The notes under the pieces were generated by a model. That model searched no databases, was not told the origin of the DNA, and worked only from the letters and a program-made list of their open reading frames with translations. 52,140 bases of DNA from Lachnospiraceae bacterium (GTDB lineage: Bacteria > Bacillota > Clostridia > Lachnospirales > Lachnospiraceae), in assembly GCA_017437785.1 (NCBI GenBank), contig JAFRXH010000081.1, positions 1-52,140 on the forward strand, given 5' to 3'. The stretch's first letter is position 1, and each line of letters opens with the position of its first letter. Shown one piece after another: positions 31,826 to 37,867 of this stretch. Both the position numbers and the translations under genes were made by a program.

Positions 31826-33441
31826 ACGTTAATCTTTTATATGCGGATAAAGAATGGTATTCCTCAAACCCGTATTATGACTGGAGCAGCATAAGCAAGG
31901 ATCTGGGACTTAATGCGCTTTTTAAAGCCGCATCACTTGATTCGATATTCAGAAACACCAGGACCGTCTATGCCGAAAAGGAAGATCCTTATCTGGGACA
32001 GACCTTAAGAAAGGTAATGCGCCAGCCCCTTAAAAATGCGGAAGAGATAAAATACCGGCAGGAGATACTTAAAGACTGTTTTAAAAAACAGGCCTTTATC
32101 GACAGTCTTTACCAGATATCCTGCAAAGTCTTAAGCGACTGGGAAAAGCTCGGAAGAAAAAGCAGCACGGCAGGAGAGCGCGATTCAAAAGCAAAGCTCA
32201 TCACCGATCTGAAAGTACTGCGTCTTCTGGTAGACGCTGTCTCGAAAGTGCAGACTCTTTTTATAGAAAATCTCGACGGTATCAATTCACAGGGTCTGTT
32301 GAATCTTTTTGACCGCCTGCAGAACGAACTGACGGAAGAGAAGTTAGAAAACCTCGATACACTGATGAAGAGCATGTCTTTCTATGCAAACATAGCAGGC
32401 GACTCATCCGCACCGGAATACTATGTATCAAGGCTTCCGCGCATCAGGATCGACTGCGGTCTGACCGACGGTCTTAAGATCTGCGACTTAAAACTCGAGA
32501 CCATGGAGACCATAATAAAACCTTTCAGCAAACCAAACGGTATCAAGGCAAAGATACACGGTACGATCACATCATTAGCACCCGGTGTTATCTCGCTCTA
32601 TAAAGACCAGGCCATGCAGGATGACGCCGCACAGCTGGAATTCCAGACGATAAACTATGTATATTCATATTGCAACAGCCTGGTGGACTCCTACGGAACG
32701 TTTTTTGACCAGCTGCATTTCCAGCTGGCATTCTACCTGGGTGCGATAAATATAAGATCACAGCTGCAGCGTTTTAAGATAGAATACTGTTTCCCGCAGG
32801 TATCAGAAAAAAAAGATCTGCTTAGATACGACGATCTCAAAGAAATGGTAATGACCCTGGACAAAGAAGGCAAGACCGTCGGAAACAGCGGTACCTTAGA
32901 TGGCAAACAACTGGTGGTGATAACCGGCGCCAATCAGGGCGGTAAATCAACATTCCTGCGAAGCATAGGGATAGCGCAGATCATGATGCAGTGCGGTCTC
33001 ATCGTTTCCGCAAAAAGTTATCAGAGCGGGATCTATACTTCACTCTTTACACATTTTACAAGACGTGAAGACAGTGCTATGAACAGCGGACGTCTTGATG
33101 AAGAGCTGCGCAGGATGGATCAGATAATCAATAATATGGGAGAGGATCCTCTGATATTATTAAACGAATCCTTTGCGACCACTACGGAAAAAGAAGGTTC
33201 GGAGATCGCTTACGGTATCGTAAGAGCACTGAAAGAAGAGGGTGTACGTATCTTTTCCGTAACTCACCTTCTTTCGTTCGCACAGCGTATATATGAAGAA
33301 TCAAAGACTGATGAGAAAGTCTGCTTTTTATGCGCCGAACATCTTGATGACGGAAAGCGTACATACAAGATGATCGATCATGCTCCGGAGCTTACCAGCT
33401 TTGGCCTTGAACTTTATGATGAAGTATTGGGAAGTGCTTGA
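31822..33441 (+). CDS. MutS-like ATPase, second of a pair
   Basis: 539 aa, a distant paralogue of the preceding protein. Walker A is GANQGGKS (369-376), followed by HFTRREDSAMNSGRLDEEL (signature region), Walker B DPLILLNESFATT and H-loop SVTHLLSF. A helical N-terminal part (1-360) again lacks the mismatch-binding domain. The start ATG overlaps the stop of the first gene (ATGA) with AAAGGAG 9 nt upstream, so the two are made in fixed ratio and may form a heterodimer, as MutS ATPases work as dimers. Its stop codon lies inside the next promoter's -35 box. Confidence 0.85.
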   Translation: MNVNLLYADKEWYSSNPYYDWSSISKDLGLNALFKAASLDSIFRNTRTVYAEKEDPYLGQTLRKVMRQPLKNAEEIKYRQEILKDCFKKQAFIDSLYQISCKVLSDWEKLGRKSSTAGERDSKAKLITDLKVLRLLVDAVSKVQTLFIENLDGINSQGLLNLFDRLQNELTEEKLENLDTLMKSMSFYANIAGDSSAPEYYVSRLPRIRIDCGLTDGLKICDLKLETMETIIKPFSKPNGIKAKIHGTITSLAPGVISLYKDQAMQDDAAQLEFQTINYVYSYCNSLVDSYGTFFDQLHFQLAFYLGAINIRSQLQRFKIEYCFPQVSEKKDLLRYDDLKEMVMTLDKEGKTVGNSGTLDGKQLVVITGANQGGKSTFLRSIGIAQIMMQCGLIVSAKSYQSGIYTSLFTHFTRREDSAMNSGRLDEELRRMDQIINNMGEDPLILLNESFATTTEKEGSEIAYGIVRALKEEGVRIFSVTHLLSFAQRIYEESKTDEKVCFLCAEHLDDGKRTYKMIDHAPELTSFGLELYDEVLGSA

Positions 33442-33466
33442 CATTTATATACATAGGTGCTATTAT
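33438..33466 (+). promoter_or_regulatory. Near-consensus promoter of the leader RNA / ClpP / VirD4-like operon
   Basis: TTGACA (33438-33443), 17 nt, TATTAT (33461-33466). The -35 overlaps the stop codon of the second MutS-like gene. Transcription would start near 33473. Confidence 0.75.
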
Positions 33467-33471
33467 CATCA

Positions 33472-33858
33472 GCACCCGAAAAAAATTTATTAAGGGTGTT
33501 AAGTTTTAAAGGCAGTATGCCGAAATTATCTAAGCAAGGCTGAAAGAGCCGACAATTATTCTAAAGTGGCGAAAGCCCGCATAATTTATTTAGGGCGTCA
33601 GGCCCATCATACAATTAAGAGCGAAAGCTCATCTAGGATTTAAAGAATACCCAAAATTTAACAAAGAATGGTGAACAGTTCCAAGGGGAAGTCCGGCCTT
33701 TTTTCGCTGCCGATCTGTCCACAGGAGCTGTTGTGACCCTTAAAATCTTCATGTCACTAATGAAGATCACGGGGAGTTTGCGCTGTTTGCGCAGCCCGTT
33801 CTTTGACAACTGAATGAGGAACTGATAACCATCTGACAAAGTAAGGAGGTAATACTTT
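33472..33858 (+). ncRNA. Long structured leader with a regular array of small hairpins
   Basis: This 390-nt stretch has no convincing gene. It opens with CACCC/GGGTG (33473-33498). Five hairpins follow, centred near 33516, 33544, 33572, 33599 and 33624: GGC-agtat-GCC, GGCT-gaaag-AGCC, GGC-gaaa-GCC, GGGC-gtcag-GCCC and GAGC-gaaa-GCTC. They are separated by AU linkers resembling AATTATTCTAA. Then come a terminator-like AAGGGG..CCTT with six T (33683-33704), a perfect 8-bp stem ATCTTCAT/ATGAAGAT (33746-33769), ACGGG/CCCGT around GCGC pairs, and a boxA-like GTTCTTTGACAACTGAAT. It ends at a strong ribosome site. It may be a riboregulator, an antitermination leader or a free RNA. Confidence 0.6.
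33683..33704 (+). terminator. Terminator-like attenuator inside the leader
   Basis: AAGG-GG-aagt-CC-gg-CCTT with a small bulge, running into TTTTTT. If used, it would stop transcription before the 146-aa gene, making expression depend on read-through. Confidence 0.45.
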
Positions 33859-34299
33859 ATGTACAGTTACAGGTACACAAATCCCAATACGACTCTGTAT
33901 CAGGCTGAATACACTATGTATCAGGCCGTATCAAAACTTTTTGCAAAGGTTAGCTGCAGGTCTTTGACCTTAGAGAGGCTTAAGCTCTATCACGCCGAAC
34001 TTTCCGAAAAAGGAAAGCAGGAACTGGATAAAAAGATAAGACTTTTAGTTGATAAATACGTGGCCGATAAGGTCTGTTTTCCCGCTATGAATGTATGCCA
34101 TGCGGAAGTAAGGATCCTGAACAACGCAGACGGCACACACAGATTTTTATTCAGTGACGGGGTGTATGGCTTCTTAGTAAGCATAAAGCATGCAAAAGGC
34201 GGAAAGATCATGCTCAGTATAGAGGAGCGGAATAAGACCGGCTTAAAGCCGCCTGAAAAAACTGAAATAGTAACCGTTAACGCACAGCGTTGTGCATAG
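33859..34299 (+). CDS. Unknown 146-aa protein
   Basis: No family is recognised. It is soluble, with a helical, Tyr/Lys/Leu-rich N-terminal half (1-75, including SLTLERLKLYHAELSEKGKQEL) and a beta-rich second half (about 78-130, CHAEVRILNNADGTHRFLFSDGVYGFLVSI). The start has a textbook AAGGAGGT 8 nt upstream, so it is clearly translated. It is the first gene after the structured leader and lies 21 nt before the ClpP-like gene. Its place suggests it works with the protease or with the VirD4-like ATPase, for example as adaptor or regulator, but that is inference. Confidence 0.75.
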   Translation: MYSYRYTNPNTTLYQAEYTMYQAVSKLFAKVSCRSLTLERLKLYHAELSEKGKQELDKKIRLLVDKYVADKVCFPAMNVCHAEVRILNNADGTHRFLFSDGVYGFLVSIKHAKGGKIMLSIEERNKTGLKPPEKTEIVTVNAQRCA

Positions 34300-34320: not shown

Positions 34321-34902
34321 ATGAACGCAATGATCTTACACGAATCATCAAGAGGAATCGACACTTACACACCCGAAAGCAGTCTTTTAAAAAAGAGGAT
34401 CCTCTTCTTTACGGAAGAGGTGAATGCAGAATCTTCCAACCGCATGATAGAGTATCTGCTCTATCTTGATACGGATGCTCCAGGGGAAGAGATAACCATA
34501 TGTATCAACAGTCCCGGAGGTGAAGTGATCTCCGGGCTGGCAGTATACGATACCATCATGGGTTTAAAAAGCCCAGTGCGTACGATATGCATAGGAACTG
34601 CAGCCAGCATGGGATCGATCCTCTTCTTATCGGGTGAAAAGCGTGAGATGCTTCCACACACTAAGATAATGATACACGATCCGCTGATCAGCGGCCTTTC
34701 GGGCAGCAAGAAGGCGCTGGAACTGGAAAAGGAGGCAGCGCAGCTGATGGAGATCCGTGCCGTGACAGCACAGATCATTGCAGACAGGAGCGGCCATTCT
34801 CTTGAAGAAGTCTATGCCAAAACAAAGGAAGACTGTTATTTAACTTCCGCCGAAGCGATAGACTTTGGCATTGCAACCGGCATAGCAAGATCGATACTGT
34901 AA
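34321..34902 (+). CDS. Accessory ClpP-family serine protease
   Basis: 193 aa, full-length ClpP. The catalytic triad is readable: Ser in GTAASMGS, His in IMIHDP, and Asp in KEDCYLTSAEA. INSPGGEVISGLAVYDTI is the usual substrate-cleft region. ClpP normally forms a 14-subunit chamber fed by ClpX or ClpA/C. No Clp ATPase is nearby, so it would use the cell's own or associate with the VirD4-like ATPase. It is not next to clpX or tig, where a housekeeping clpP usually lies, which makes it an accessory copy. GGGAGG precedes the start. Confidence 0.9.
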   Translation: MNAMILHESSRGIDTYTPESSLLKKRILFFTEEVNAESSNRMIEYLLYLDTDAPGEEITICINSPGGEVISGLAVYDTIMGLKSPVRTICIGTAASMGSILFLSGEKREMLPHTKIMIHDPLISGLSGSKKALELEKEAAQLMEIRAVTAQIIADRSGHSLEEVYAKTKEDCYLTSAEAIDFGIATGIARSIL

Positions 34903-34982: not shown

Positions 34983-36365
34983 ATGGGAAATATACATGCA
35001 GCAGAAAACATTAGCAATACGGCTTCTTACCGAATACTTGGTAAAAATGTAAAGATATCCGAAGACAGCCGTGTCACGGGACTCAATAATAATACACTGG
35101 TCACGGGCATCTCCGGCTGCGGAAAGACCGGTTCCTATGTGACACCCAATCTTTTCAGTACGCGCGGCAGTATCGTGGTAGTCGACACTAAAGGTCTGCT
35201 GTACAGGCAGAACGCCGCTGCACTCAAGCGAAGAGGATATAAGGTAATTTTATTGGACTTTGTTCATCCCGAAAGATCGGCTCCTTTCAATCCTCTTGAT
35301 ACCATAAAATGTTATAAGAAAAAGTGTGTTAGGGTCATATGTCCCGCAATATGGGATGATGACGGGGAACTGCTGCTTGAGGAAGAACTGGGTGAGGTTG
35401 AAGTAGAAAAATACCGCCAGCAGGATCTGCAGCGTATCGCGGCAATGCTGCAGCCTGTTAACAAATGCGAAAAGGATCCTTTCTGGCCGGAAGCCGCACA
35501 GATAGTGATCTCCAGTCTTATGGCATACGTTCTTGAAGTAATGCCGAAAAAAGACCGGCACTTCGGGACTGTGGCAGAGCTCTTCCGCAGGATGTGTAAT
35601 GAAATACCCAGAAAGGGTTTTAGAGATGTGTCGTTCTTTAAGGAACTGGAGGACGAGGATCCGGATAGTTTTGCGGTAAAAAGATACCGTATGTACTCTC
35701 CCACTTTCCAGACCGAAAGGACCTGGGCGTCGATCACACAGTTTGTAAACAATGCACTGCAGATATTCGATTATGAAGAGTCCAGGGAAATGTTCTGCAG
35801 ACAGGGGATAGACCTTGCCGAATGCGGACGTGTAAAGACAGCATTGTTTGTGAATGTTAGTGATACCGACCGTTCCATGGACAGTATCATAAACATCTTT
35901 TATACACAGCTTTTCCAGATGCTGTGTAATGAAGCCGACGCAAATATCGACGGACGCCTTAAGGTACCTGTACACATCATACTTGATGACTTTGCCGCAA
36001 ACGTACAGATCCCGGATTTTGATAAGATAATATCCGTGATACGCTCCCGTGAGATAAGCGTGAGCATAATGCTGCAGTCGATATCCCAGCTTAAGGGACT
36101 GTATGATGAAGCCCAGGCTTCGACGATAATCAATAACTGCGACAATATGGTCTATATGGGTGGCCAGGATATCGAGACCGCAAGGTTCTTTGCCGATAAA
36201 GCAGGCAAGCTTCCCGAAAGCATACTGCAGCTGGATCTTGATCATGAATGGCTCTTTACCCGCGGAAGATCTGCGCAGCTTCTGGAAAAGATACCGCCCT
36301 ATTCTTTCTGCGCGGATGAACACGATATGGAAAAGAATATGAGATTTAAGGTAAAAGGATCATAA
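34983..36365 (+). CDS. VirD4/TraG-like coupling ATPase lacking a membrane anchor
   Basis: 460 aa. Walker A GISGCGKT (42-49), DTKG (68-71), DPFWPEAAQIVISSLMAYVLE (about 165-185), Walker B HIILDDF (331-337) and QSISQLKGLYDEAQASTIINNC (365-386) mark the type IV coupling protein family, hexameric motors that feed DNA or protein into secretion channels. The family's N-terminal membrane helices are absent: the start at 34983 has AAGGAG 7 nt upstream and sequence goes straight to the ATPase. No relaxase, mating-pore gene or integrase is near. It may be a domesticated motor. It follows the ClpP gene by 80 nt. Confidence 0.85.
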   Translation: MGNIHAAENISNTASYRILGKNVKISEDSRVTGLNNNTLVTGISGCGKTGSYVTPNLFSTRGSIVVVDTKGLLYRQNAAALKRRGYKVILLDFVHPERSAPFNPLDTIKCYKKKCVRVICPAIWDDDGELLLEEELGEVEVEKYRQQDLQRIAAMLQPVNKCEKDPFWPEAAQIVISSLMAYVLEVMPKKDRHFGTVAELFRRMCNEIPRKGFRDVSFFKELEDEDPDSFAVKRYRMYSPTFQTERTWASITQFVNNALQIFDYEESREMFCRQGIDLAECGRVKTALFVNVSDTDRSMDSIINIFYTQLFQMLCNEADANIDGRLKVPVHIILDDFAANVQIPDFDKIISVIRSREISVSIMLQSISQLKGLYDEAQASTIINNCDNMVYMGGQDIETARFFADKAGKLPESILQLDLDHEWLFTRGRSAQLLEKIPPYSFCADEHDMEKNMRFKVKGS

Positions 36366-36467: not shown

Positions 36468-36908
36468 ATGGAACAAACCGGTGATCTTGATACTGCTGCT
36501 AAGATCCGCTTAACGGTCTTTTCTCTTGTAATGCTCTGGGGAGCAGCCCTGTCGGTTTATTTCTCCCGCAGGATATTTGATCTGCGCTTTGGCGATCATC
36601 CGCTTAAATTTTTGCCGTCGGGGATATCTTATATCATGGTCGCAGTATATGCATTTATTATCCTGGTACTTACGATGATCCCGATGTATCTTTTCCAGAT
36701 GATCGCATTGAAAAAAGGTGTTGAGACTTATCCAAAAGAAGCACGTTACGGAAAACTGATCATGGGCATAGCTTTTCTGATCGTTTTGTTTTTAGGTGTG
36801 ATCGTTACGGAAGGAACGGTCTATATACCGCTTTTAATATTCAGTCTTATGTGGTTTGCATCGGGACAGCTCTGCTATATCTTCCAGATAAAAGGAGAGA
36901 AGTTATAA
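36468..36908 (+). CDS. Four-helix membrane protein of unknown function
   Basis: 146 aa. Membrane helices at about 13-30, 50-78, 98-116 and 121-140; N- and C-termini are predicted inside. No motif or family is recognised. AAGGAGG lies 5 nt before the start. It is separated from the VirD4-like gene by 102 nt with a possible promoter of its own and ends in a strong terminator. It could belong to the ClpP/VirD4-like locus, supplying the membrane part that the ATPase lacks, or be independent. Confidence 0.7.
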   Translation: MEQTGDLDTAAKIRLTVFSLVMLWGAALSVYFSRRIFDLRFGDHPLKFLPSGISYIMVAVYAFIILVLTMIPMYLFQMIALKKGVETYPKEARYGKLIMGIAFLIVLFLGVIVTEGTVYIPLLIFSLMWFASGQLCYIFQIKGEKL

Positions 36909-36921
36909 CATCCGTAGTGGT

Positions 36922-36958
36922 GGCAAGGGTCAATGTTCAGAGGACCCTTGCCTTTTTT
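36922..36958 (+). terminator. Strong terminator, overlapping the end of the convergent gene
   Basis: GGCAAGGGT (36922-36930), loop, ACCCTTGCC (36944-36952), TTTTTT. The last codons and stop of the minus-strand gene (36937-36939) lie within the hairpin. Confidence 0.85.
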
Positions 36959-37299
36959 GCTAAATAGAGGCGCTGGGATTTGGAAAGAAGTATTGTAGTC
37001 TGACTTCCATGTATTTCTGAATGATATTTATTTGATTTTGAAGGAAGATATCTGACTACGGCACCGGTATCATAACAATGTTTTACATAAAGATATATGA
37101 TACGTCCCGTGAATTTTTTTTGCATATAAACAACAACGTCCTGATCGGAGCGATGGTTGCCGCGGTCAACCGATAGACCTTTAGGATCTGCAAAAGCAGC
37201 GGAGGACAAGGAACCGTCTTTACGCCAGAACATTGCCAGATACTCCGGAGGATAAACTGCACGGTATAGTTTTTCTTTGATGTCGAAATTGTCATCCAT
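36937..37299 (-). CDS. Second gene of a toxin-antitoxin-like pair
   Basis: 120 aa from the preferred start at 37299, which overlaps the upstream stop (ATGGATGA); a start at 37320 has no ribosome site. The protein carries LYRAVYPPEYLAMFW and SLSSAAFADPKGLSVDRG, a pattern I associate with uncharacterised small bacterial proteins encoded after Phd-like genes. The middle (DVVVYMQKKFTGRIIYLYVKHCYDTGA) is beta-rich. It has no catalytic motif I can name. Gene order (regulator first, partner overlapping) and autoregulation signals fit a toxin or effector role, which is inference. Confidence 0.65.
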   Translation of the reverse strand: MDDNFDIKEKLYRAVYPPEYLAMFWRKDGSLSSAAFADPKGLSVDRGNHRSDQDVVVYMQKKFTGRIIYLYVKHCYDTGAVVRYLPSKSNKYHSEIHGSQTTILLSKSQRLYLAKKARVL

Positions 37300-37867
37300 A
37301 AAAAGCCAGGATCCTTTCATTTAATACAGAAGCATTTGAAGAGATCTGTTCAAGTATCTCGTTTCCCTGATATGTTACAATAAATACTTCAGCAATTGTG
37401 TCTGTTCCTATTTCTATCTCCATATGGTCATGTCTGGAGTTGTCGTATTCCAATTGGATCGTTTGTAAGGCAGTAGGAAAAATCTCAGGTTGTATCTGCA
37501 GATCCCTTAACAGCCCTGTTACTTTAGCTATAAGTTTTGACGGAAAAGGAGAAGCACCATTTCCGTTCCAGTTTTTCTTAAGTCCTGCGATCATTTTTAA
37601 TTTTGCCAGATTTTCGTTCAAGACATCAGAAGATCCGTTTGAGTGTATTGCAGAACCTGATGATCTTCCATGTTCTATAACCTTTGAAAGTTTTGTTTCA
37701 TATGCGTAAAGACGTGTTAACTGATTTAAACGCTCATATTCATTTTCAGAGATTATTACAACATTTTTGTTTTCTTTTCTGGGAACCAGGATCACTTCCC
37801 CATCATAAGCAGCATCAAAGTATTTTTTGATATTGCTGCGGATTTCCATTTGTTTGACTATAGCCAT
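37292..37867 (-). CDS. Phd/YefM-like antitoxin-type regulator with extra C-terminal domain
   Basis: 191 aa. Residues 1-60 look like a Phd/YefM fold (EIRSNIKKYFDAAYDGEVILVPRKENKNVVIISENEYERL: small DNA-binding domain with 'nVViiSeneYe'). A linker with Ser/Gly (about 65-85) leads to a second domain (about 95-175) containing LKKNWNGNGASPFP and IFPTALQTIQLEYDNSRHDHMEIEIG. Phd-type proteins bind their own promoter and neutralise the partner protein. Here the protein is about twice the usual antitoxin length, so the C-terminal domain may do more than bind a toxin. GGAG lies 7 nt before the start. Confidence 0.75.
   Translation of the reverse strand: MAIVKQMEIRSNIKKYFDAAYDGEVILVPRKENKNVVIISENEYERLNQLTRLYAYETKLSKVIEHGRSSGSAIHSNGSSDVLNENLAKLKMIAGLKKNWNGNGASPFPSKLIAKVTGLLRDLQIQPEIFPTALQTIQLEYDNSRHDHMEIEIGTDTIAEVFIVTYQGNEILEQISSNASVLNERILAFYG

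Follow-up and report, generated by a model that had tools for sequence, protein, structure and literature searches.

A row of regularly spaced GC hairpins in the leader of a small operon for a ClpP-like protease and a coupling protein in Lachnospiraceae

The sponge RNAs of CsrA/RsmA consist of rows of short hairpins with GGA motifs in their loops. ANTAR targets, as outlined in passages of PMC3369931, are made of paired stems whose hexaloops carry A at position 1 and G at position 4, and conAn2 (of pLS20) and canT (of Tn916) are presented in parts of PMC8955417 and PMC11658703 as RNAs for processive antitermination in conjugative elements of Gram-positive bacteria. Here we analyze a leader from a 52,140-nt stretch of Lachnospiraceae DNA (the whole of which is called the window), in which a row of short hairpins precedes a small operon encoding a ClpP-like protease and a VirD4-like coupling protein. 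A sequence-only reading of this DNA had matched the row to no RNA family that it could name, and Rfam 15 agrees: the window contains no matches at the gathering score, and the leader, searched at E ≤5, matched only a nematode snoRNA (E 3.3), on the opposite strand and outside the array. No matching hairpin array was found among the open-licence titles and abstract openings listed in the literature search.

Layout of the leader and its operon

The leader was taken as the stretch between a MutS-like gene, which ends at 33441, and a 146-aa open reading frame that starts at 33859. The near-consensus promoter proposed earlier was found at its start, where a plus-strand sigma-70-type promoter, TTGACA-17-TATTAT (33438..33466), has 11 of 12 matches and a TG preceding the -10 element. 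It is followed by a first hairpin (H0, 33473..33498, plus strand), in which a CACCC/GGGTG stem encloses an A-rich loop and precedes a T-rich stretch. By reading, H0 looks terminator-like in the related genomes G028 and G032, is weak in the window, and makes a poor terminator in the window and in G016.

Downstream of H0 lies the array of five short 4-bp GC hairpins (33511-33630, plus strand), all of which were obtained both by hairpin detection and in the consensus fold: H1 (33511..33521, centre 33516), H2 (33538..33550, centre 33544), H3 (33566..33580, centre 33573, with a GGC-GAAA-GCC core at 33568-33577 centred at 33572.5), H4 (33593..33605, centre 33599), and H5 (GAGC-GAAA-GCTC, 33619..33630, centre 33624.5). 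The centres are 25.5-29 nt apart and agree with those claimed in the sequence-only reading, which was also right about the GAAA-type loops (three of the five are GAAA or GAAAG) and the AU linkers (once the hairpins are masked, A or T stands at 47 of 56 bases and C at 6).

A chain of five hairpins appeared in none of 4000 dinucleotide shuffles, the best of which reached three; the leader and the array were each shuffled 4000 times for two spacing ranges. The array is the sole locus with a chain of five in the 52-kb window, and it is detected on both strands. The detector, run on 97 loci that together hold 561,549 bases with redundancy, found 27 chains of at least five hairpins; 24 of them are these arrays again, seen via overlapping loci or the opposite strand, and the other three, in L051 and L058, have GC-rich linkers (AT 0.30-0.48). 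The 17 hairpin units have 68 arm positions, of which 67 pair, a score that none of 5000 arm shuffles equalled; as the units were preselected as hairpins, this score shows the variety of the stems and is not independent proof of pairing.

The folding energy of 33473-33640 is modestly better than that of its shuffles (z -1.66; 18 of 200 fold as well), and that of the whole leader gives z -2.60. In longer folds of the window some stems lose to rival pairings, with pair probabilities of 0.08-0.12 for H1 and 0.20 for H2, and in longer folds of G028 two hairpins have pair probabilities of 0.01-0.02. The consensus fold of three sequences (window, G016, and G028) consists of H0 and the five hairpins.

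Beyond the array, a post-array motif, AAAGAATACCCAAAATTTAAC (33642..33662, plus strand), aligns in G016, G028, and G032. Base pairing of its AATACCC with the GGGTGTT of H0 (33494-33500) is possible in the window and in G016; this pairing occurs only in the consensus fold of these two sequences and is not kept in G028. The T-run hairpin of the earlier reading stood in part: the T6 run exists (33699-33704), but it sits within the loop of a plus-strand hairpin (33694..33709) that is missing from the terminator scan list. This T-loop hairpin has a pair probability of 0.0 in a 240-nt fold. The eight bases TTTTTTCG (33699-33706) are complementary to CGAAAAAA (33477-33484) of the H0 loop, and an A-run/T-run (A6/T6) pairing between H0 and the T-loop hairpin appears in the consensus fold of the window and G016. 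In both G016 and G028, shorter pairings can be read at these positions. We do not claim an RNA switch based on the A6/T6 and GGGTGTT/AATACCC pairings, because the latter is not kept in G028. Farther downstream, an 8-bp perfect stem, ATCTTCAT/ATGAAGAT, can be read at 33745..33767 (arms 33745-33752 and 33760-33767, plus strand), and a boxA-like site, GTTCTTTGACAACTGAAT, is present by pattern match at 33798..33815 on the plus strand, both as previously described. A leader peptide starting from the ATG at 33518 was discarded as short and, by reading, absent in G028.

The first gene of the operon encodes a 146-aa protein (33859..34299), for which no convincing family was found in Pfam, NCBIfam, or PHROGs. 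It is followed by genes for a ClpP-like serine protease (34321..34902; Pfam CLP_protease, E 3.2e-48), a VirD4-like coupling protein of the CD1115 family (34983..36365; NCBIfam NF045973, 309.8 bits with a cut-off of 250), and, as a putative operon member, a second 146-aa protein (36468..36908), which matches Pfam DUF898 only below the curated cut-off and has a 74% identical homologue beside the coupling-protein gene in G028. These four genes are on the plus strand, and minus-strand genes follow from 36937. At 36937-37867, a minus-strand gene resembles Phd/YefM-type antitoxins (E 5.8e-7; 29.6 bits, narrowly missing the cut-off of 29.8) and overlaps a 127-aa gene, with which it possibly forms a toxin-antitoxin pair.

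Distribution and conservation among relatives

A homologous leader before the same genes in relatives had been named as a check on the array, and two relatives, G016 and G028, have one. Counting the window's own, arrays occur in three of 35 genus genomes and only ahead of this operon, with five hairpins in the window, five in G016, and seven in G028. The 146-aa protein of G032 is 43% identical to that of the window; in this genome the promoter, H0, and the post-array motif are readable and alignable, and the array is missing. Among the 35 genus genomes, the DNA search with the leader matched two (the window's own and G016), and the protein search detected the 146-aa gene in seven, the own genome included. 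The covariance model R1 matches the window, G016, and G028 at 135-173 bits in this set; these are the sequences from which it was built, and G016 and G028 had first been recognised without it, by DNA match and by protein. The only other R1 matches at E ≤1, both in G009 (E 0.034 and 0.79), were judged to be chance; the former precedes a gene that we take to be for a flagellin, and the latter presumably lies inside a coding sequence.

In 397 sampled family genomes, searched with stricter filters, R1 returned only the window's own leader at E ≤0.1. In 37 sources, most of which carry the operon or a relative of its first gene, it gave three strong matches, the next one scoring 16.1 bits (E 0.62). 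A blastn search with the leader matched 12 of 397 family genomes at E ≤0.01, the own included, and the other 11, which are short, were judged to be chance because no operon gene was found in their loci. Viral contigs contained no relative of the 146-aa protein, their 18 matches to a 16-base pattern are close to the chance estimate, and R1 found nothing strong in the pattern-matched contigs (best 16.2 bits, E 0.27). Neither the 146-aa protein nor the leader was matched in plasmids. Within the 700-nt leaders of 27 other loci of the 146-aa family, chains of at least five hairpins occur only in L030 (G016) and L031 (G028); the leader of L037 has four chained hairpins, with linkers of mixed composition. 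Before the coupling-protein gene of L095 (G015:C149), irregular, weak, A-rich array-like hairpins follow a boxA-like site; we did not count them as an array because R1 has no match there and no chain of at least four is formed.

The upstream neighbours of the operon differ between the array-bearing genomes, being a MutS pair in the window, an ABC transporter in G016, and a 942-aa protein in G028. The operon genes were not found in six stretches around MutS relatives from genomes other than the window's, G028 among them. Both observations indicate that the leader goes with the operon and not with the site.

The array is 75% identical to that of G016 (90/120) and 66% identical to that of G028 (79/120). 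Counted on MAFFT columns, in which some hairpins are misregistered so that the stem values are probably low, stems are kept at 32 of 38 positions in G016 (0.84) and 34 of 38 in G028 (0.89), loops at 15 of 21 (0.71) and 9 of 21 (0.43), and linkers at 43 of 61 (0.70) and 36 of 61 (0.59), respectively. Loops and linkers are thus alike in the comparison with G016, and loops are clearly worst in that with G028. At fourfold sites, the identity between the window and G016 is 0.39 for clpP, 0.33 for traG, and 0.46 for p146 (24 sites), and that between the window and G028 is 0.40 for clpP and 0.60 for p146 (only 20 sites). The promoter hexamers are identical at 6/6 and 5/6 positions in G016 and at 6/6 and 6/6 in G028, and the 17-base spacer between them, an internal control, at 9/17 and 7/17. 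H0 and the region 33631-33692 are conserved too (0.51-0.81), which suggests selection on the whole leader and not on the array alone.

Covariation and constant spacing had been expected to support the array, and the two fared differently. Spacing is conserved, at 26-27 nt in G016 and 23-30 nt in G028, but compensatory changes were not seen: none of 19 pairs has both sides changed in strict columns of three rows, some of them misregistered in H2-H4, a count that has little power with three sequences and near-invariant stems. The array is very probably a real, selected RNA element.

Structured leaders usually evolve by base changes within a fixed fold. Here the stems and their spacing are kept, and the number of hairpins varies by whole units between related species, from none in G032 to five, five, and seven in the window, G016, and G028. 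Aligned to the window, the G028 array has two cleanly inserted segments, one of 30 nt and one of 21 nt, each made of a hairpin and a linker, and the 30-nt unit is identical to its neighbouring unit at 21 of 30 positions, an apparent tandem duplication of one unit as judged from the alignment.

Leaders of the 146-aa family and a second RNA element

A scan of genome contigs for the 146-aa family yielded 32 loci, from Lachnospiraceae, Butyrivibrio, one Eubacterium sp., and one uncultured Firmicutes. Five of these (L033, L042, L047, L060, and L061) were dropped as duplicate, odd, broken, or cut, and the 28 leaders examined are those of 27 loci and the window. BoxA-like sites, matched to the generally known boxA consensus, are present in 22 of the 28 leaders versus 175 of 1339 length-matched control windows; the pattern occurs in the window and G016 and is absent in G028. 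By reading, the promoter of many family leaders is directly followed by a long hairpin that runs out into a series of T. A palindrome like TAAACCACAGGTTTA was read in or near the promoter region of L035, L036, L043, L046, L050, L053, L055, and L056, upstream of the 146-aa gene, and is possibly a common operator. A DUF3800-XI RNA (RF02975) lies near the 146-aa family gene of L045 (6229-6276, minus strand).

Many of the family leaders share a 65-nt element around GGGGAAGC, located 3' of boxA, of the form GGGGAAGCA..CGC..GACC hairpin GGCG AGCGTGCCAAGG and often preceded by a boxA-like CCTTGAAAACTGAAT. It was located at L049:4817-4881, L037:700-767, L043:4797-4865 and 637-705, L154:1501-1556, and L158:1501-1584, among others. 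The element sits upstream of 146-aa family genes and, in single loci, before genes whose starts match HTH_17 (L154), Cys_rich_VLP (L158), and DUF3847 (L152). In a MAFFT alignment of 16 sequences, 7 of its 14 predicted pairs are changed on both sides, and in 36 rows fitted to the model, a procedure that leans towards the model structure, this applies to 11 of 15 pairs (75 cells); neither count was reached by any of 500 shuffles. Rfam gave no gathering-score match for the element in 16 loci, and none over it at E ≤10 in one locus. The model of this element, R2, matches 10 of 35 genus genomes (E ≤0.01), 16 of 299 family genomes (E ≤0.001), and 3 of 398 phylum genomes (E ≤0.0001); its weak matches in L161 and L163 look like chance by reading, and other weak matches need not all be real. 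R2 does not match the window, G016, or G028. The 65-nt element may be a leader RNA in its own right, one that is more widespread and belongs to integrative elements. The operon family has in this way led to a second, wider-spread RNA element beside boxA-like sites, in loci that partly resemble integrative elements, and elongation control becomes testable there.

Possible roles of the array and comparison with known RNAs

We tentatively regard the array-bearing leader as a structured, untranslated region that acts in cis on its small operon, perhaps by an antitermination-type mechanism that helps RNA polymerase through. The strong promoter would start the RNA about 386 nt ahead of the first gene. 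The RNA would form the terminator-like H0 and then 4-bp GC hairpins every ~27 nt, able to form as it emerges, followed by the T-loop hairpin and the boxA-like site. By holding the growing transcript in folded form with little free C, the row of hairpins might prevent Rho or the early terminator from halting polymerase within the leader or shortly beyond it; boxA-bound Nus factors would assist where boxA is present, and hairpin number and spacing would outweigh loop sequence. An effect on elongation or termination is our best guess in view of the array, the boxA-like sites of the family, and the early terminator-like hairpins, and the even spacing and whole-unit differences favour the view that many local hairpins act physically on the RNA as it emerges. 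Against this mechanism stand the absence of boxA in G028, the weak H0 in the window, the competing folds, and the short operon (33.5-36.9 kb), for which a processive antiterminator is not obviously needed. The lack of strict covariation and the conservation that extends beyond the array also count against it. A further, doubtful step would be a number-counting leader RNA, in which interchangeable hairpins of ~27 nt, gained and lost whole, set polymerase passage through the leader, so that unit number would tune the ClpP/coupling-protein operon without a ligand or a loop-reading protein. If number does set output, this would be a simple tunable RNA device.

Among the three roles offered by the sequence-only reading, the antitermination leader is thus the best, unproven guess; the other two were a binding platform and a stable RNA. 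Several hairpins could be bound by a protein, most simply the 146-aa first product, which would thereby regulate its own mRNA, given that the stems are similar and regularly spaced and that the array adjoins the 146-aa gene in all three array-bearing genomes. However, R1 matches none of the 34 other sources strongly, most of which have 146-aa relatives (best 16.1 bits, E 0.62), no RNA-binding family was found for the 146-aa protein, and the loops vary (0.43 identity to G028), so that a platform read through its loops is not favoured and binding of this kind seems unlikely. Release of a stable small RNA from the leader, with its site of action elsewhere, would suit the strong promoter and the compact structure, but we consider it improbable: the terminator scan lists no site directly after the array, and the array is tied to the same operon in three genomes.

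Fast-evolving hairpin repeats, whose units would duplicate readily, could instead merely protect or space the mRNA without any part in regulation, being kept since a leader lacking structure would be cleaved. The apparent duplication of a unit in G028 and the missing array in G032 would fit such repeats, whereas the conservation of the whole array, linkers included, above the level of fourfold sites would not, and we give this explanation a low probability. It is very unlikely that the array is a single-stranded DNA structure serving DNA transfer, an idea suggested by the VirD4-like gene in the operon: the promoter hexamers are conserved on the same strand, no relaxase is among the eight window proteins scanned, and 11 other coupling-protein upstream regions, and also that of G015, have no chain of at least four hairpins. 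The one chain of four in G030 has GC-rich linkers and lies on the strand opposite to the coupling-protein gene.

The leader resembles the CsrA/RsmA sponges in its row of short hairpins, but the array hairpins lack GGA. The GGA positions of the leader are 33636 (the first), 33687, 33724, 33773, 33818, and 33845, with none in 33511-33630, which speaks against a CsrA sponge. With rRNA-type boxA antitermination it has in common a boxA-like site (a pattern match) in a long untranslated leader; it differs in that the leader is not one of rRNA and that the site is missing in G028. Its small tandem stem-loops recall the ANTAR dual hairpins, but there are five to seven of them, and none of the five array loops fits the hexaloop with A at position 1 and G at position 4 as given in passages of PMC3369931 for ANTAR target RNAs. 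Compared by description with conAn2 and canT, as far as these are set out in parts of PMC8955417 and PMC11658703, the likeness is that in each case a structured RNA is encoded early in an operon that has to do with DNA transfer. Those RNAs, according to the same parts, serve long conjugation operons with several terminators (over 30 kb in pLS20), whereas the operon here is ~3.4 kb and, with four plus-strand genes and minus-strand genes from 36937, is not the start of a long conjugation operon. The leader RNA is of a known kind; its expandable row of like hairpins would be a new form of it.
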